47,871 nt of DNA, from positions 1 to 47,871 of the forward strand of contig JAUSDY010000087.1 in NCBI GenBank assembly GCA_030650395.1, given 5' to 3'. How positions within the stretch are numbered: position 1 is the first letter of the stretch; every line of letters starts with the position of its first letter. A program made the translations under genes and the position numbers. Source of the DNA: Acidobacteriota bacterium. GTDB lineage: Bacteria > Acidobacteriota > Vicinamibacteria > Vicinamibacterales > UBA2999. Positions 4,165-28,802 of this stretch are shown here, in pieces. Under the pieces are notes generated by a model, which saw only the letters and a list, made by a program, of their open reading frames with translations, searched no databases and was not told the DNA's origin.

Positions 4165-4983
4165 GTGAAACTCGGGCTCATTGCCGGTAACGGACGATTC
4201 CCATTTTTGGTACTGGATGCCGCGCGGTCTCTCGGGCACGAGGTGACCATCATCGGCATCAAGGAAGAAGCGTCGCAGGAGCTCGAACAGGCCGCCGCGC
4301 GCGAGCCGAAGGCGGCGCTCCACTGGGTGTCGATCGGTCAGCTCGGCACCTTCCTGAAAATCCTCAAAGACGCGGGCTTGTCCACCGCCGTGATGGCAGG
4401 GCAGGTCAAGCACGTGCAGATTTTCGGCGGCTTCATTCCCGACCTGACGGCGCTGTCGTTGATGGGGCGGGTCAAGTCGATGAACACCGACGCGCTGATC
4501 GCCGCCGTCGCCGATCTGATGCGTGAGAACGGCGTCGAGCTGATCAACTCAACCGCGTTTCTCGAGCCGCTGCTGGCTGAGGCAGGGCAGCTGAGCGAGC
4601 GCGCGCCGAACGAGGCTGAGCGAAAAGACCTGGAGTTCGGGTATCGCATGGCCGACGCCATCGCCGGCCTCGACATCGGGCAAACGATCGCGGTCAAGCA
4701 CCAGGCCGTGGTCGCCGTCGAGGCGATGGAAGGCACCGACGAGACGATCGGCCGTGCCGGCCACCTCGCCGGGCCGGGCGTGGTGATTATCAAGGTCGCC
4801 AAGCCAAATCAGGACATGCGGTTCGACGTGCCGATCGTCGGTCTGGCCACGATTCAGGCCATGCGCGTCGCCGGCGCCACAGTGCTTTCGGTCGACGCCA
4901 AGCGCACGCTCGTTTTTGATCGGGATGCGTTGCTGGCCTCGGCCAACGAGGCCGGCATCGCCATCGTCGGAAGGGCCCGATGA
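4165..4983 (+). CDS. lpxI: UDP-2,3-diacylglucosamine pyrophosphatase LpxI
   Basis: LpxI (formerly DUF1009) hydrolyses UDP-2,3-diacylglucosamine to lipid X and UMP, step four of lipid A synthesis, in bacteria without LpxH. The 272-residue protein has the N-terminal domain MKLGLIAGNGRFPFLVLDAA and ends with the C-terminal catalytic domain. That domain contains DIGQTIAVKHQAVVAVEAMEGTDETI, VVIIKVAKPNQDMRFDVPIVG and GATVLSVDAKRTLVFDR, all typical of the family. Start is GTG after the tandem repeat; the stop overlaps the next ATG (ATGA). Being between lpxA and an oxidoreductase supports a lipid A operon. Confidence 0.92.
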   Translation: MKLGLIAGNGRFPFLVLDAARSLGHEVTIIGIKEEASQELEQAAAREPKAALHWVSIGQLGTFLKILKDAGLSTAVMAGQVKHVQIFGGFIPDLTALSLMGRVKSMNTDALIAAVADLMRENGVELINSTAFLEPLLAEAGQLSERAPNEAERKDLEFGYRMADAIAGLDIGQTIAVKHQAVVAVEAMEGTDETIGRAGHLAGPGVVIIKVAKPNQDMRFDVPIVGLATIQAMRVAGATVLSVDAKRTLVFDRDALLASANEAGIAIVGRAR

Positions 4984-5909
4984 GGGCCGCCGTGATCGGC
5001 GTCGGCCACCTGGGCCGGCATCACGCGCGGATTCTCGCCTCGCTTCCCGGCATCACGCTGGCGGGCGTCGTCGATACCAATCGCGATCGCGCCAACCAGG
5101 TGGCCGGCGAGCACGGCACGCAGGCGTTCGGCAATGTCCGCGAGATGTCCGGCAAGGTCGACATCGTCGTGGTGGCGGTGCCGACCGAAAGCCATGCGGC
5201 GGTTGCGATGCCGTTGATCGAGGCCGGGGTGCATGCGCTCGTCGAGAAGCCGATCGCGCAAACGGTGGCGGAAGCCGATGCGCTGATTGCCGCCGCGAAG
5301 AAGGCGGGCGCGGTCCTGGCCGTGGGTCACAGCGAGCGCTTTAATCCGGCAGTGGCGGCGGCAAGGCCGTACGTGAAGGATCCGCGTTTCATCGAGGTCC
5401 ACCGGCTTGGGATCTTTCCGGATCGCAGCCTCGACATCGACGTCGTGCTCGACCTGATGATCCACGATCTCGATTTGATTCTGAGCCTGGTGCCGAGCGA
5501 GGTCGAGGGGGTCGAGGCCGTCGGCGTGCCGGTGTTGACGCCAAAGGTCGATATCGCCAACGCGCGCATCCGGTTTGCCAACGGGTGCATTGCGAACCTG
5601 ACCGCCAGCCGCATCAGCCGCGATCCGGTGAGGAAGATCCGCTTCTTTCAGCGTGATTCGTACGTGTCGATCGATACGGCGTCGCGCGAAGTGGAGATCT
5701 ACAAGCTCGTGCCGCAATCGGGCGCGCTTCCGAAGATCGGCGGAGGCAAGCTCGACGTGGCTGGAGACGAACCGCTCAAACGAGAGCTTGAAGATTTCGT
5801 GGCCGCCGTGCGAAACGGCGGTACACCCGCGGTCACCGGCGAGCAGGGCCGCGCAGCCCTCGCGCTCGCGATCCGCATCGTCGACCTGATGGAACAGCAT
5901 GGACATTAA
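4980..5909 (+). CDS. Gfo/Idh/MocA family NAD(P)-dependent oxidoreductase, possible GnnA-like UDP-sugar dehydrogenase
   Basis: A 309-residue dehydrogenase. The N-terminal Rossmann fold has the dinucleotide motif GVGHLGRHHA, and the EKP signature (VEKPIAQTVAEAD) carries the catalytic lysine. GHSERFNPAV follows, then the second domain with IDVVLDLMIHDLDLI. The family oxidises sugars and related alcohols. Its overlap with lpxI and nearness to lpxA suggests a nucleotide-sugar substrate. In Acidithiobacillus, GnnA, a member of this family encoded among lpx genes, oxidises the 3-position of UDP-GlcNAc before transamination by GnnB. No GnnB-like aminotransferase is adjacent here, so the substrate is inference. 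Confidence 0.82.
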   Translation: MRAAVIGVGHLGRHHARILASLPGITLAGVVDTNRDRANQVAGEHGTQAFGNVREMSGKVDIVVVAVPTESHAAVAMPLIEAGVHALVEKPIAQTVAEADALIAAAKKAGAVLAVGHSERFNPAVAAARPYVKDPRFIEVHRLGIFPDRSLDIDVVLDLMIHDLDLILSLVPSEVEGVEAVGVPVLTPKVDIANARIRFANGCIANLTASRISRDPVRKIRFFQRDSYVSIDTASREVEIYKLVPQSGALPKIGGGKLDVAGDEPLKRELEDFVAAVRNGGTPAVTGEQGRAALALAIRIVDLMEQHGH

Positions 5910-6864
5910 CCTCGCAATCGCCGAACGCGCGCGAGCGGGCGAGTCGTTGACGGCCGCCGAGCTCGACGAGCTGGCCTCGGCCGACCTGCTGTCGCTTGGC
6001 ATGCTGGCCGACGAGGTGCGGCGGTCGCGCGTCGGCGACACGGTCACGTACGTGCGCGTATTTGAATGGTCCGCCTCCGCTCGCACAGGTTCTGGCGAGC
6101 TACGGCGAGACTCCGCCGAAGCGGCCTCCGGCCGCGAAGGCGAGCCTGTCCCCTCGAAGGCCGGCGAGATTCGAATCGCGGTGGTGCCCGAGTCGCTGGC
6201 CGGCGCTGTCGCCGCGATTGGCAACGCTCGCGCCGCGGCCCCGAAAGTTCTGCTGACCGCATTCTCGCTGGCCGACATCGTCGATCGGGCCTGGGCGCCT
6301 CTGGTCGACGTGCTGCGCCAACTGAAGAGCGCGGGCCTCGACGCCATTGCCGAAGCGCCGATCGATCGCGTCGCTGACCTTGCCGGCGCACTCCAAGCCT
6401 GCCAGGACGCTGGGCTGGCTGCTCGTTGCCTGTCGCTGCAGAAGCCGGTGGGCGGCGCCAGAATCGATCTGCTGGTCCTGTTGCAGACCCTTGCCGCCAG
6501 GTTCGCCTGGGTGCAGACCGTGGCGCCGCTGCCGCGCGAGCAGTCCGTCGCGGTGCCGACCACCGGGTACGACGATGTGAGGGCGGTGGCGATGGCACGG
6601 CTGGCGTTACCGGCCGTGCGGAACATTCAGGTCGATTGGGCCCAGTACGGCCCCAAGCTCGCGCAGGTCGCGCTCACGTTCGGCGCCAACGACGTCGATC
6701 GCGTGTCGCCGATCGATGACGAAACGTTGGGCCGCCGCCGCACGGCCGTCGAAGACGTCAAGCGGAACATCGCCGCGGCCGGGTTTACGCCCGTCGAAAG
6801 AGATCTCCCATTCGACTCGCAGCGAGGCGGTGCCTCGCCGCTCGCTCAGGGCAGGCCCCAGTGA
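5899..6864 (+). CDS. MqnE/CofH-like protein lacking the radical SAM cluster
   Basis: This 321-residue protein resembles aminofutalosine synthase MqnE at both ends. Residues about 26-55 (DLLSLGMLADEVRRSRVGDT) match the segment just before the [4Fe-4S] motif. Residues about 219-300 match the C-terminal region (TTGYDDVRAVAMARLAL, DWAQYGPKLAQVALTFGAND). Where CxxxCxxC should stand there is a Ser/Arg/Glu-rich stretch partly encoded by a palindromic repeat (6111-6144), and only two scattered cysteines occur in the whole protein. It cannot bind the cluster, so radical SAM catalysis is excluded. It starts 11 bp inside the preceding gene and overlaps mqnA. It may be a structural pseudoenzyme or a decaying paralogue that has kept its frame. 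Confidence 0.75.
   Translation: MDINLAIAERARAGESLTAAELDELASADLLSLGMLADEVRRSRVGDTVTYVRVFEWSASARTGSGELRRDSAEAASGREGEPVPSKAGEIRIAVVPESLAGAVAAIGNARAAAPKVLLTAFSLADIVDRAWAPLVDVLRQLKSAGLDAIAEAPIDRVADLAGALQACQDAGLAARCLSLQKPVGGARIDLLVLLQTLAARFAWVQTVAPLPREQSVAVPTTGYDDVRAVAMARLALPAVRNIQVDWAQYGPKLAQVALTFGANDVDRVSPIDDETLGRRRTAVEDVKRNIAAAGFTPVERDLPFDSQRGGASPLAQGRPQ
6111..6144. repeat. Family B palindrome inside the MqnE-like gene
   Basis: Hairpin with cgcc-gaag-cggcc and ggccg-cgaa-ggcg arms, read in frame as roughly residues 71-82 of the MqnE-like protein. It sits where the radical SAM cysteine cluster would be in MqnE. It is related to the copy at 11092-11121. Confidence 0.55.
6807..6858. repeat. Family A palindrome at the 3' end of the MqnE-like gene
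   Basis: Begins cccattcgactcg and ends cgctcagggcaggcc, with a complementary gcgaggcggtgcctcgc core. It encodes the last residues FDSQRGGASPLAQGRP. Near-identical ends occur at 9053-9107, 16004-16027 and 28445-28491. Confidence 0.7.
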
Positions 6865-7649
6865 CTCCGCTTCGGCTCGGCGCGGTTTCGTATCTCAATA
6901 CGAAGCCGCTGGTCTATGGACTTGACGCGCACCCCGAACAGTTCAACGTCCGGTTCGACGTGCCATCCAGATGTGCGGCGTTGCTCCATGAGGGCAGCGT
7001 CGATCTCGGCCTGATTCCCGCGATCGAGTATTTGCGCGGTGAGTATGTGATCGTGCCTGACGTGGCGATTGCCTCCGACGGCGAGATCGCGTCGGTCGCG
7101 GTGTTCACGCGCGTGCCGATTGACAAGGTGCGGACGCTGGCGCTCGACATCAGCTCTCGCACGTCGGTGGCGTTGACGCGCGTGTTATGCGCGAAGCATT
7201 GGGGCATTGCGCCCTCGTTCACGCCTGCGGATCCCGACCTGGAAACCATGCTCGCCCGCGCCGACGCGGCGCTGATGATCGGCGACCCCGCGCTCAGGAT
7301 CGATCCCGCCAAACATCACGCAATCAAAATCGATCTGGGCTCCGAATGGCGGTCGCTGACCGGCCTGCCGTTCGTCTATGCGATGTGGACCGGGCGCTCC
7401 GGCGCCGCGTCGGCCGAGCAGTGCCGGGCGCTGCAGGCGGCCCGCGACCGCGGCGTCGCGCGCGTCGCCGATATCGCGCGCGATGTTGCCCAGGGTGACA
7501 AGGACCGCGAGACGCAGGCGCTGCATTACCTGCGTGATAATCTCAAATACAGCCTGGGGGAACGCGAATCGGCAGGCTTGCGCCGTTTTCACGAGCTTGC
7601 CTCAGAGATCGGCTTGGTACTGTCGTTGCAGCCTCTCCGCTTCTATTGA
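6861..7649 (+). CDS. mqnA: Chorismate dehydratase MqnA
   Basis: MqnA dehydrates chorismate to 3-enolpyruvylbenzoate, the first step of the futalosine menaquinone pathway. The 262-residue protein has the periplasmic-binding-protein-like fold of the family. It opens with RLGAVSYLNTKPLVYGL and continues with VPSRCAALLHEGSVDLGLIP, SRTSVALTRVL and ADAALMIGDPAL, then GLPFVYAMWTGR. Start is GTG 6861, overlapping the stop of the previous gene. Downstream mqnC and prenyltransferase genes confirm the pathway. Confidence 0.94.
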   Translation: MTPLRLGAVSYLNTKPLVYGLDAHPEQFNVRFDVPSRCAALLHEGSVDLGLIPAIEYLRGEYVIVPDVAIASDGEIASVAVFTRVPIDKVRTLALDISSRTSVALTRVLCAKHWGIAPSFTPADPDLETMLARADAALMIGDPALRIDPAKHHAIKIDLGSEWRSLTGLPFVYAMWTGRSGAASAEQCRALQAARDRGVARVADIARDVAQGDKDRETQALHYLRDNLKYSLGERESAGLRRFHELASEIGLVLSLQPLRFY

Positions 7650-7730: not shown

Positions 7731-8950
<1,220 letters not shown>

Positions 8951-8954
<4 letters not shown>

Positions 8955-10189
8955 CCCATTACCGAGCGGCGTGGGTCTGTCCCATCGACCGCTCGCCCAT
9001 CAAGGACGGCATCGTCACGGTCGATGCGGGTCGGATCGCCGCGATCCGGGCTCCCTTCGACTCGGGACGAGACCGGGACCCGGTCTCGCCCCTCGCTCAG
9101 GGCAGGCCGGTCCGGGATCTCGGGCGTGTCGTGCTCATGCCCGGGTTGATCAACGCACACATTCATCTCGAGCTGTCGTGGCTGCGCGGCCGCGTACCGC
9201 CCGCCCACAAGTTCACCGACTGGGTGAAGCAATTGGTCGCGCTCCGGCGTGGCATCGAGCGGCTGGGCGACCCTGACGTGGTGGCGCCGATTCGCACGGC
9301 GATTGGCGAGCTGCGCGACTCCGGCACGGTGGCCGTGGGCGACATCAGCAATTCGCTCGCCTCGGTGGCGCCGATGGCCGAGGCCCGGCTCGACGGCATC
9401 GTGTTTCACGAGCTGCTTGGCTTCAAGGAGCGTGACGCCCGGCTGGTCGAGCGCTCACTCGAAGCGCGCAACGCCGTCGCAGCAAGCGGCATTCGAACCT
9501 CGATCGCGCCCCATGCTCCGTATTCGACGTCGCCGGAGCTGTTTCGCGCCATTCGTGCCGCCGTCGACGAATCTCCGTGTCGCATTACCAGCATTCACCT
9601 CGGTGAGTCGCCGCAGGAGGTCGAGCTGCTCGCGACCGGCACGGGGTCGTGGCGCAGCATGCTCGAGATCATCGGCGCATGGCGCGACGACTGGCAGATT
9701 CCCGGTTGTGGCCCCGTCGAGTATCTCGACGGCATGGCCCTGATCGACGCGCGCACATTGGTGATCCACGGCGTGCAGCTCGAGGACGGCGCGTTGCGGC
9801 GCCTCGCTCAGATCGGCGCCACGCTCGTGACCTGCCCGCGCAGCAATCAATGGGTCGGCGTTGGCGCACCGCCGATCGAACGCTTCTACCAGTCCGGCGT
9901 CGCGGTGGCGGTTGGCACCGATAGCCTCGCCAGCGTTGCCGATCTGAATCTCTTCGGCGAGATGAAAGAGATGCGCTGGCTCGCGCCCGGCGTTCCGGCT
10001 GCAAAAATTCTCGAGAGCGCCACCCTGGTCGGCGCCCGTGCGCTCGGTCTCGACCACGAGCTCGGGACCCTGACCCCCGGCAAGCGTGCCGAGATCATCG
10101 CGGTCGCAGTGCCGGAAGGCGTGGATGATGTTGAGGAATACTTGCTGAGCGGAATCCAGCCTTCACAGATCTCCTGGATCGAGTCGTGA
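8951..10189 (+). CDS. Amidohydrolase, probable aminodeoxyfutalosine deaminase
   Basis: A 412-residue metal-dependent hydrolase of the TRZ/ATZ/guanine-deaminase type. Visible metal-site motifs are GLINAHIHLELS (HxH), SIAPHAPYS, SIHLGES, a histidine in LVIHGVQL and the aspartate in VGTDSLAS. Because it overlaps mqnC and sits in a menaquinone operon, the likely reaction is deamination of 6-amino-6-deoxyfutalosine to futalosine. Related TRZ/ATZ enzymes do this in other futalosine-pathway bacteria. Substrate is inferred from context; the family is clear. A family A palindrome is inserted in frame after residue about 35 in the N-terminal beta domain, encoding FDSGRDRDPVSPLAQGRP. Confidence 0.85.
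9053..9107. repeat. Family A palindrome inside the amidohydrolase gene
   Basis: Starts cccttcgactcggg and ends cctcgctcagggcaggcc, with a central perfect hairpin gagaccggga/cccggtctc. It is read in the same frame as the copy at 6807-6858, giving the shared residues SPLAQGRP. Confidence 0.75.
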
Positions 10190-10217
10190 ACCTCTGAACC
10201 TTTGAACCTGTGAACCG
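10187..10217 (+). repeat. 8-bp tandem repeat forming the entire amidohydrolase-prenyltransferase junction
   Basis: Four consecutive units tgaacctc, tgaacctt, tgaacctg, tgaaccg. The first TGA is the stop of the upstream gene, and the GTG start at 10210 straddles the last two units, so the whole spacer is repeat. Confidence 0.85.
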
Positions 10218-11061
10218 ACTAGTCACCTACCTGTCCTTCGTCCGCTTCAGCCATTCGGTGTTTGCGCTGCCGTTTGCGCTGACCGGCGCGCTGCTCGCGT
10301 GGCGGGTGGCGCCGTTCCGTTGGTCTCAGGTCGGATGGGTGATCGTGGCGATGGTGGCGGCGCGAAGTGCCGCGATGGGCTTCAACCGCCTGGTGGATGC
10401 GCGGATGGATGCCCTCAATCCCAGGACCGCCGCCCGCGAGATCCCGCGTGGCGCGATGGGCCGAGGCGAGGCGACCATCTTTGTGATCGTGTCGTCGGTC
10501 GTGTTCATCGCGGCCTCCTGGCGATTGAGCCCGCTGTGTGCGCTGCTTTCGCCAGTCGCGTTGGCCATCGTCTTCTGGTATTCGCTCGCCAAACGCTTCA
10601 CGTCCTACACGCAGTTGTTTCTTGGACTCGCGATGGCCGTGGCGCCGGTCGGCGGCTGGCTGGCAGCCGGTGGCCGCGGCGGGTGGGAGCCGTGGGTGCT
10701 TGGCCTGGCGATCGGGTTGTGGGTCGGCGGATTTGACATTCTCTACGCGTGCCAGGACGTGGAGTTCGATCGCGCGCACGGCTTGAACTCCATACCGGTG
10801 CGATTCGGGATCGCCAGGTCGCTCTGGATCTCACGGGCGATGCATGCGGCGACGATCATCTGCATGGCGAGCCTGGCGTTTCTCGTACCGCTCGGTCCGA
10901 TCTATCTCGCCGGCGTCGCGCTGGTCGCGGGCCTGTTGATCTACGAACAGTCGCTCGTCAGCGAGCGCGATCTCTCGCAGGTCAGGCGCGCGTTCGATCT
11001 CAATGGCTGGGTGGGGATCTTGTATTTCGTGACGACGGGCATCGCGCTGTATGTCGGTTAG
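10210..11061 (+). CDS. mqnP: UbiA-family prenyltransferase (MqnP-type)
   Basis: A polytopic membrane enzyme of 283 residues that attaches the polyprenyl chain to the naphthoate ring precursor. Both Asp-rich prenyl-diphosphate motifs are visible: NRLVDARMDALNPRT near residue 60 and YACQDVEFDRAHGLNSIP near residue 180. About eight hydrophobic helices follow the UbiA pattern. The start is GTG 10210, formed by the upstream 8-bp repeat (VNRLVTYLSFVRFSHSVFALP). It lies in the menaquinone operon and overlaps menG by 11 bp, which favours MqnP over ubiquinone UbiA. The exact substrate is inferred from context. Confidence 0.88.
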   Translation: MNRLVTYLSFVRFSHSVFALPFALTGALLAWRVAPFRWSQVGWVIVAMVAARSAAMGFNRLVDARMDALNPRTAAREIPRGAMGRGEATIFVIVSSVVFIAASWRLSPLCALLSPVALAIVFWYSLAKRFTSYTQLFLGLAMAVAPVGGWLAAGGRGGWEPWVLGLAIGLWVGGFDILYACQDVEFDRAHGLNSIPVRFGIARSLWISRAMHAATIICMASLAFLVPLGPIYLAGVALVAGLLIYEQSLVSERDLSQVRRAFDLNGWVGILYFVTTGIALYVG

Positions 11062-11836
11062 CTCACCGTCAGGCGGGTCCGAGCGAAGCGAGTCCGCCGA
11101 AGCGCAACGCGCGAAGGCGGATCGACAGCTAGACAAGACACCCGCGAAAATCTCGGGGATGTTTGACGCGATCGCCGGGCGCTACGACCTTCTCAACACG
11201 GTCTTGTCTGGCGGTCTCGATCGTTATTGGCGCCGACGCGCTATCGCGACGTTGCAGCTGACCGGGTCCGAGCGCCTGCTTGACGTCTGCACTGGAACCG
11301 CCGACGTCGCGATCGGGGCGGCGCGCGGCGGTGCCGCGAGGATTGTGGGCGTCGATTTTTCCGGCGTGATGCTGGTTCACGGGCTCGAGAAAATCCGCCA
11401 CGCCGCGCTCGGGCCGCGGGTCAACCTCGTGCGTGGCGATGCCATGAGCCTGCCTGTCGCCAGCGCGTCCGTGGATGCCGCCACCATCGCGTTCGGCATT
11501 CGGAATGTCCAGCAGCCCGACGTCGCCTGCCGCGAGCTGCACCGGGTGCTTCGGCCCGGCGGCCGTCTGGCCATTCTCGAGTTTGGGCTGCCGGTAATTC
11601 CCGCCGTGCGACCCTTGTATCTCTGGTATTTCAACCATGTGCTGCCGCGGATCGGCCGGGCGGTCTCGAAGCACGACGCGGCGTATACCTATCTGCCCGA
11701 GTCGGTCGGTACCTTTCAGTTCGGCGACGCGTTCGCCCGGATCCTCAGCGACGCCGGATTTTCACAGGTCCGCCACAAGCCTTTGGCGCTCGGCATCGTC
11801 TATCTGTATACGGGTCAAAAACCGTCGGGGACTTGA
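11051..11836 (+). CDS. menG: Demethylmenaquinone methyltransferase (UbiE/MenG family)
   Basis: Performs the final SAM-dependent C-methylation of demethylmenaquinone. The 261-residue protein contains the N-terminal family motif FDAIAGRYDLLNTVLSGGLD and the SAM motif LLDVCTGTADVAI. It also has VGVDFSGVML, the DAATIAFGIRNV segment and RPGGRLAILEFG. The first 30 residues (Ser/Glu/Arg-rich) are translated from a family B palindrome and are not conserved; initiation could occur further in, but ATG 11051 fits the overlap with mqnP. It is the last gene of the menaquinone operon. Confidence 0.92.
   Translation: MSVSSPSGGSERSESAEAQRAKADRQLDKTPAKISGMFDAIAGRYDLLNTVLSGGLDRYWRRRAIATLQLTGSERLLDVCTGTADVAIGAARGGAARIVGVDFSGVMLVHGLEKIRHAALGPRVNLVRGDAMSLPVASASVDAATIAFGIRNVQQPDVACRELHRVLRPGGRLAILEFGLPVIPAVRPLYLWYFNHVLPRIGRAVSKHDAAYTYLPESVGTFQFGDAFARILSDAGFSQVRHKPLALGIVYLYTGQKPSGT
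11092..11121. repeat. Family B palindrome in the menG N-terminal coding region
   Basis: gtccgccgaagcg and cgcgaaggcgga flank a short centre and form a hairpin. It is in frame and encodes SAEAQRAKAD-like residues before the conserved methyltransferase domain. Confidence 0.65.
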
Positions 11837-27995: not shown

Positions 27996-28802
27996 ATGAA
28001 GATAGCAGTCTGTATCAAGCAAGTTCCCACCCGCGAGTGGCAGCCGCGTCTGAACGACGACAAGACGTGGATTCGCGATCAGGACGTCAGCTATGAAATG
28101 AACGAGCCCGACGCCTATGCGCTCGAGGAGTCGTTGCGGCTGCGCGAGAAGCATGGCGGCGAAGTGGTGGTCTGTTCCGCGGGCCCGGCCCGCGTGCAGC
28201 AGGTGATTCGTGAAGCGCTGGCCCGCGGCGCCGATCGCGCGCTGCACGTTGAAGACGATGCGCTGGGCGCGGCGGATGCGTTCACGGCCGCGTCGGCGAT
28301 GACGGCGGCGATGGCCGAGCAGAAGTTCGATCTGATCCTGACGGGCCTGCAGTCTGACGACCAGGGCCACGCGCAGTTCGGCCCGGTGCTCGCCGAGAAG
28401 CTCGGCATCCCGCATTCGACGATCATCATGGAGGTGAATGTCGACCCTTCGACTCGCGACGCCGAAAACGGCGCCGCTCGCTCAGGGCAGGTGGCTGGGG
28501 TTAGGGTCAAGCGCGAGCTCGAAGGCGGATGGTTCCAGTACGTCACGATGCCGCTGCCGGCGCTGCTGACCATTCAGAGCGGCATCAACCAGCTCCGCTA
28601 CGCCACGCTCAAGGGGATCATGGCCGCGAAGAAGAAAGAGATCATCAAGGTGGCGGCCCCGGGCGGCCTGGCGCCGCGGCACAAGGTAATCGCGCTGCAC
28701 ACGCCGCAGAAGTCGAAGCAGACCGTGATGATCGGCGGCTCGCCTGCTGAAGCGGCGAAAGAGCTCGTGAAGCGGCTGCGCGAAGAGGCGCGGGTCCTAT
28801 GA
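27996..28802 (+). CDS. etfB: Electron transfer flavoprotein beta subunit
   Basis: EtfB binds AMP and, with EtfA-FAD, carries electrons from acyl-CoA and other dehydrogenases. The 268-residue protein begins KIAVCIKQVPTREWQPRLND and contains MNEPDAYALEESLRLRE, LTGLQSDDQGHAQFGPVLAE, the ETF beta signature region (VKRELEGGWFQYVTMPLPAL) and LRYATLKGIMAAKKK. ATG 27996 is the natural start; earlier in-frame codons lie in the spacer repeat. A family A palindrome (28445-28491) adds about 15 residues (DPSTRDAENGAARSGQ) in a surface loop before the signature. It overlaps etfA (ATGA). Confidence 0.93.
   Translation: MKIAVCIKQVPTREWQPRLNDDKTWIRDQDVSYEMNEPDAYALEESLRLREKHGGEVVVCSAGPARVQQVIREALARGADRALHVEDDALGAADAFTAASAMTAAMAEQKFDLILTGLQSDDQGHAQFGPVLAEKLGIPHSTIIMEVNVDPSTRDAENGAARSGQVAGVRVKRELEGGWFQYVTMPLPALLTIQSGINQLRYATLKGIMAAKKKEIIKVAAPGGLAPRHKVIALHTPQKSKQTVMIGGSPAEAAKELVKRLREEARVL
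28445..28491. repeat. Family A palindrome inside etfB
   Basis: Starts cccttcgactcgc and ends cgctcgctcagggcagg with gacgccg/cggcgcc core arms. It is read in a different frame from the copies at 6807 and 9053, and still leaves the gene intact. Confidence 0.75.

Follow-up and report, generated by a model that had tools for sequence, protein, structure and literature searches.

A pseudoenzyme-type homologue of MqnE in the menaquinone operon of Vicinamibacterales, a probable non-catalytic partner in futalosine menaquinone synthesis

In the futalosine route to menaquinone the product of MqnA is the substrate of MqnE (aminofutalosine synthase), an active enzyme, and the PGGG segment shared by MqnE and MqnC has a role in binding S-adenosylmethionine (SAM). 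S-adenosylmethionine decarboxylase (AdoMetDC) and deoxyhypusine synthase belong to other families and are not radical SAM enzymes. In trypanosomes, as two papers describe, each of these has a catalytically dead paralogue as subunit of a demonstrated heteromer: the AdoMetDC prozyme of T. brucei (PMC5201418) and its counterpart in deoxyhypusine synthase (PMC3663545). A further paper records MqnA, MqnC and MqnD in 5/5 Acidobacteria proteomes (PMC3914697). Here we describe psE, the open reading frame at 5899-6864 (+) of a 47,871 nt stretch of an Acidobacteriota genome assigned to the order Vicinamibacterales (GCA_030650395.1, contig JAUSDY010000087.1; the whole stretch is called the window, and all coordinates are window positions unless a contig or locus is named). 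Like these two proteins, psE appears to be a dead paralogue kept in the pathway of its biosynthetic relative; unlike them it is bacterial, and where their heteromers have been demonstrated, that of psE is proposed. In our estimate (roughly 60%) psE is a non-catalytic partner in futalosine menaquinone synthesis.

psE has an intact reading frame of 321 amino acids (aa) with no interruption, as the first-pass annotation of this DNA had noted. CofH_C is the sole Pfam domain scoring above its cut-off (Table 1), and Pfam Radical_SAM gave no match in psE up to an E-value of 1. The NCBIfam models for MqnE (TIGR03700, 67.2 bits, far below the cut-off of 434.55) and MqnC (TIGR03699, 70 bits, cut-off 428.1) match mainly the C-terminal part, and a profile of the psE family matches the solved MqnE structure 6xi9 weakly at the N-terminal end (16.8 bits) and in the C-terminal part too, in line with the earlier statement that MqnE aligns with the two ends of the protein but not with its cysteine region. 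The orthologues compared come from the best 80 of 216 relatives found, of which 73 proteins were used; left out were L041 (run of N), L044 (cut by a contig end), L096 (ambiguous letters), L065 and L092 (start codon not found), and L115 and L120 (hallmark pattern unmatched by the script). The window protein has two cysteines, neither arranged as CX3CX2C. This motif is found in 0/73 orthologues, 24 of which contain no cysteine at all, and in 24/24 MqnE/MqnC control proteins; its loss, claimed from the window alone, holds for the whole set. In 8/8 psE rows of alignment A2 there is a gap where MqnE and MqnC have the cluster loop and likewise where they have the PGGG segment, so that psE resembles an MqnE barrel with pared-down active-site loops. 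Read from its sequence, psE is a pseudoenzyme-type homologue of an active enzyme family, with the catalytic residues gone.

The fold of psE was predicted with AlphaFold2 using alignment A3 (74 rows), giving a mean predicted local distance difference test score (pLDDT) of 90.4 and a predicted template modelling score (pTM) of 0.88 for the window protein, and a pLDDT of 95.3 and a pTM of 0.92 for an orthologue that lacks the insert described below. The best PDB match of the window model was MqnE of Pedobacter heparinus (6xig_A; Z 26.6, root-mean-square deviation (rmsd) 2.8, 287 residues), and the insert-free model likewise retrieved P. heparinus MqnE first (6xi9; Z 28.6, rmsd 2.9, 293 residues), with the next radical SAM barrels scoring Z 19-20. 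psE is thus predicted to be an MqnE-like (beta/alpha)8 barrel, and so passes the structural comparison that the first-pass annotation had suggested. The likeness to MqnE extends over 287-294 residues of the model and takes in the N-terminal helices and the C-terminal domain, whereas psE differs from MqnE in lacking CX3CX2C and PGGG, in its length (about 290 aa against about 370) and in its score (67 bits against 434.55). With MqnC it shares the CofH_C domain, Q244 (12/12 MqnC) and K253 (75%), and it differs from MqnC in the same two losses, in its score (70 bits against 428.1) and in forming a separate clade. Invariant residues are spread throughout alignment A3, and the hallmark motif QVDWxxYGPKLAQVALTFGA(D/N)D is nearly invariant.

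The first-pass annotation had held that the cysteine region was replaced by low-complexity sequence made in part by a palindromic repeat. The repeat is real: about 75 bp long and rich in inverted arms, it is dispersed in its own genome (34 BLAST matches including the psE copy, two of which are perhaps halves of one copy), and in the alignment with MqnE it falls where the cluster loop would be. The psE model has low confidence there (pLDDT 60 for aa 61-70 and 56 for aa 71-80). Since insert-free orthologues also lack the cysteines, the repeat did not replace the motif, and its insertion was rejected as the cause of cysteine loss; the repeat is a later in-frame insertion. Of the orthologues in alignment A1, one other (G006, L015/L044; L044 125-173) carries this repeat, at the same psE loop but in the opposite orientation (49 bases, 92%), which argues that the loop tolerates insertions; the nearest relative (G001, L041) has a run of N at the repeat position. 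Folding of the insert as single-strand DNA was not striking (z -1.87). Rickettsia palindromic elements are multi-copy repeats inserted in frame in protein genes, and the psE insert is like them in behaviour only, as an in-frame multi-copy palindrome, and in a different organism. A second short repeat was observed at the 3′ end of psE (6834-6857), in mqnX (9085-9108), at 28472-28491 and in L041, the psE copy falling in a C-terminal extension present in the source genome and L041.

psE is conserved across the order. At a presence threshold of E<=1e-30 it was found in 94/106 Vicinamibacterales genomes (Acidobacteriota, by record titles; each at least 90% complete), and in a draw of 297 genomes from the phylum the same threshold, which could miss more divergent versions outside the order, returned psE in 28, with 28/28 within Vicinamibacterales. 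Four genomes of this draw are named as lacking psE at that threshold: two further Vicinamibacterales genomes and two that belong to a different order within the class. Among the best 80 of 216 loci, those that are named place the group in Acidobacteriota; several of their titles contain Vicinamibacterales or Vicinamibacteria, and one locus comes from a Luteitalea metagenome-assembled genome. Six loci carry NCBI titles of metagenome-assembled genomes that are probably wrong (L043, L057, L059, L099, L119, L120), namely Acidimicrobiia (L043), Cyanobacteria (L099), and also Bifidobacterium breve, Alphaproteobacteria and Woeseiaceae. In the 106 genomes 94/95 psE matches are stop-free, and the TGA in the other (G007), which closes the match, is simply where that psE gene terminates. 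One bin (G365) holds two psE copies, C89:184-1041 and C233:5267-6127 (L187), each followed by mqnC, as either a duplication or mixed strains would give.

The ratio of nonsynonymous to synonymous substitution (dN/dS; Nei-Gojobori, own script) between the window gene and nine relatives was 0.18-0.40 for psE, 0.16-0.27 for mqnA, 0.08-0.18 for mqnC, 0.15-0.31 for mqnX and 0.13-0.26 for the upstream oxidoreductase, values that are rough because many pairs have a dS near or above 1. psE appears to evolve more quickly than its neighbours yet is clearly constrained, a pattern indicative of purifying selection. The first-pass annotation had offered, as its alternative, that psE is a decayed copy while a real MqnE is elsewhere. 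The loss of the cluster cysteines, the repeat inserted in the source genome and the fast evolution of psE would fit an mqnE copy on the path to loss, but its presence in 94/106 genomes, the stop-free matches, the dN/dS well below 1, the motifs invariant over 74 rows, the confident predicted fold and the occurrence of the cysteine motif in 0/73 orthologues all stand against it; close relatives carry neither the motif nor frameshifts. Decay was rejected, and we give it almost no weight. The second half of that alternative, a real MqnE elsewhere, proved correct.

The source genome (98.41% complete) has a single match above the TIGR03700 cut-off, at C157:36708-37757 (473.3 bits), with CX3CX2C intact, and this is the true MqnE; its gene adjoins a quinolinate-synthase-like gene (label by reading). 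Another VitK2_biosynth protein is encoded on the same contig; it is MqnD by reading, had no NCBIfam match, and beside it lies futalosine hydrolase (MqnB; TIGR03664, 160.2 bits, cut-off 124.7). With mqnA and mqnC in the window, and MqnE, MqnB and the second VitK2_biosynth protein on C157, the early pathway is complete without psE. A role for psE as stand-in for a missing early pathway enzyme was therefore rejected, MqnA, MqnE, MqnB, MqnC and MqnD (by reading) all being present.

This completeness bears on a further explanation, in which psE is not dead: its emptied barrel was re-purposed, and a new set of invariant residues would serve either to bind an intermediate of the pathway or to catalyse some step without radical chemistry. 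Ten residues are present in at least 90% of the 74 psE rows and rare in 12 MqnE and 12 MqnC (R53, V54, R92, Y224, V245, D246, Y250, G278, R280 and A293), K253 and R281 are likewise invariant in psE, and several of the psE-specific residues lie at strand ends or in the stretches after strands 6-8 (DSSP of the model), as re-purposing would lead one to expect. On the other side, no early step is vacant in the genome, and relatives outside the order possess the pathway genes without psE. We regard re-purposing as unlikely, although it is the strongest of the competing explanations.

The position of psE ties it to the mqn genes, as the first-pass annotation had seen for the window. psE shares 11 nt at its start with the 3′ end of the oxidoreductase gene upstream and 4 nt at its stop codon with mqnA, which begins with GTG and is followed by mqnC. 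Across the loci, mqnA lies directly 3′ of psE in 70/71 with enough downstream sequence and mqnC lies within 2.3 kb in 70/71 (the exceptions to these linkages being L114 and L102), and with script-chosen start codons the end of psE overlaps the beginning of mqnA in 45/72 loci, by exactly 4 nt in 38/72. The oxidoreductase gene lies within 1.9 kb upstream of psE in only 59 of the 75 loci with covered upstream sequence, which argues that psE travels with the mqn genes. No fusion of psE with a partner gene was noticed among the 73 psE frames, in which no dedicated search was made. In G055 (L186 3492-4721) about 1.2 kb of extra sequence lies between mqnA and mqnC, and the psE-mqnC distance is similarly large in G199 and G362.

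Outside the order, the arrangement mqnE-mqnA-mqnC was found in 5/11 genomes whose mqn regions were compared, among them both genomes from another order of the class (G121 and G263), whose MqnE has CX3CX2C; in the other 6/11, mqnE is further off, elsewhere, or beyond the stretch compared. As a true mqnE occupies this slot elsewhere, psE sits in the slot of a catalytic mqnE. The psE/mqnA junction could also be explained if psE were a carrier that passes the MqnA product to the distant MqnE, the enzyme that uses it as substrate. The gene overlap fits such a carrier, as does rate covariation, which for psE is highest with mqnA (0.41; an exploratory measure to which no significance is attached, from the 40 loci that have all nine genes). 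This covariation is weak evidence, since neighbouring genes covary without a functional link (lpxI-gfo 0.39), and mqnA has left the operon of G336 (the genome of L114) and that of G344, in both of which psE still directly abuts mqnC. A carrier role is accordingly improbable in our view, more so than re-purposing.

Across the 106 genomes, psE and mqnC occur together or are both missing. With an MqnC presence threshold of E<=1e-120, both were found in 91, neither in 9, and one without the other in 3+3, and the six exceptions are explained by contig ends, which fall inside mqnA (G271, G337, G353), psE (G384) or mqnC (G372), and by an mqnC split into two pieces (G335). Four genomes of family f11 and G357 lack psE, MqnC and every VitK2_biosynth protein, as expected were psE lost with the pathway, and four others (G021, G023, G343, G360) keep one VitK2_biosynth protein and lack mqnC and psE, an absence that may be an assembly gap.

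MqnC of the order also carries a C-terminal tail. Of 75 loci with a complete mqnC frame, 70 and the window were kept (the rest being short, at most 330 aa, or overlong), and 71 MqnC give the consensus RRnMHYexLGdPxfRerxvPRmlxLatARxxGdxsvPxELxxYxARsxxgK. The extension past the end of the TIGR03699 model is 45-60 residues in 69 of the 71 loci measured (one of 70, one overlong). Eleven MqnC from different lineages within the phylum have 2-34 residues at this position and lack the conserved tail. A conserved MqnC tail that coincides with an adjacent dead paralogue suggests a docking element.

Two lines of sequence comparison bear on the origin of psE. The top scores of its family profile (129.5, 124.0 and 123.1 bits) fall on MqnE from G066 and from the class's other order, and the best seven of 24 MqnE/MqnC are all MqnE; this ranking weakly backs an MqnE origin. 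Taken with synteny, it favours descent of psE from the operonic MqnE.

In the explanation that we propose, another mqnE copy would have taken over catalysis, after which the ancestral operonic mqnE would have lost its radical chemistry, and its barrel would have been kept in a non-catalytic role, as the partner by which a futalosine enzyme is stabilised, activated or regulated. About half of the probability given at the outset is placed on MqnC, the most likely partner in view of its adjacency, its tail and the two operons in which mqnC stayed with psE after mqnA had left; psE would then act on MqnC, the remaining radical SAM enzyme of the operon, via the order-specific tail. MqnE and MqnA are alternative partners, MqnA by the gene overlap and the rate covariation. 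The stricter proposal that menaquinone synthesis in Vicinamibacterales depends on a heteromer, in which MqnC (or MqnE) works only with the dead paralogue evolved from the operonic mqnE and docked by the new MqnC tail, is tentative, and we hold it to be rather doubtful; if true, it would mean that a pseudoenzyme can be the subunit of a radical SAM enzyme.

Several observations weigh against a non-catalytic partner derived from the operonic MqnE and acting on MqnC. psE evolves the fastest of the nine proteins measured (mean distance 0.95), and its invariant charged residues D226, D246, K253, R280 and R281 would suit a ligand site and an interface equally. The co-occurrence of psE and MqnC has a Fisher p of 1.4e-8, a value that ignores relatedness, and psE and the MqnC tail both mark one clade, so that their coincidence counts as one event. 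Rate covariation of psE, 0.41 with mqnA as given above, is -0.17 with mqnC. In a 48-row tree psE, MqnC and MqnE each occupy one side of a branch (support 100/100, 100/98 and 92/93), psE being a third group that is not nested inside MqnE, and four constrained placements were not rejected at 0.05: with MqnE of the other order of the class (p 0.275), with MqnE of G066 (0.196), with the order's own MqnE (0.095) and with its own MqnC (0.062).

The features of the locus are listed in Table 1. Two labels downstream of mqnC are to be read with their scores: mqnX reaches 160 bits against PRK08418, below the cut-off of 320, and MqnP models score under their cut-offs on the prenyltransferase. Alignment A1 comprised 28 loci and the window, with L016 omitted (run of N) and L015 cut at a contig end.

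Table 1 Features of the psE locus in window coordinates, with the basis of each label
Feature	Position	Strand	Basis
Gfo/Idh-type oxidoreductase, upstream	4980..5909	+	label by reading; linkage not universal
psE, MqnE-like putative pseudoenzyme without cysteine motif, 321 aa	5899..6864	+	profiles, alignments, predicted fold
psE N-terminal helices and barrel strand 1, aa 1-57, MqnE-like	5899..6069	+	DSSP of model; 16.8-bit match to 6xi9
In-frame copy of multi-copy palindromic repeat, low-confidence loop	~6069..6145	+	34 genome matches
CofH_C (PF19288) domain, aa 211-305	6529..6813	+	Pfam 43.5 bits, cut-off 27
Hallmark motif, aa 244-265	6628..6693	+	nearly invariant, 74 rows
mqnA (VitK2_biosynth)	6861..7649	+	PF02621 192.6 bits; MqnA over MqnD by reading
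mqnC, active-type radical SAM with CX3CX2C	7731..8954	+	TIGR03699 485 bits, above cut-off
MqnC C-terminal tail, order-specific, candidate docking tail	8787..8951	+	conserved; past end of TIGR03699 model
Amidohydrolase, probable aminofutalosine deaminase mqnX	8951..10189	+	PF01979 131.6 bits; label partly from context
UbiA-type prenyltransferase, probable mqnP	10210..11061	+	TIGR01475 279.5 bits, above cut-off
UbiE/MenG-like methyltransferase	11051..11836	+	label by reading of the frame and conserved position

No account of a dead MqnE or MqnC paralogue appeared in the titles and abstract openings of the open-licence literature among the matches listed, and the terms MqnE, MqnC and Vicinamibacter are absent from the text of PMC13386864. 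For annotation pipelines psE is a warning that a protein cannot be called a radical SAM enzyme from a C-terminal CofH_C match by itself. Other enzyme families are known to include dead paralogues that regulate their active counterparts. Should psE prove to be required, the radical chemistry of the futalosine route in this order of environmental bacteria would have an overlooked regulatory or structural partner, and the locus would be a clean evolutionary case of one operon slot that holds a catalytic enzyme in a different order of the class but a non-catalytic protein in Vicinamibacterales.

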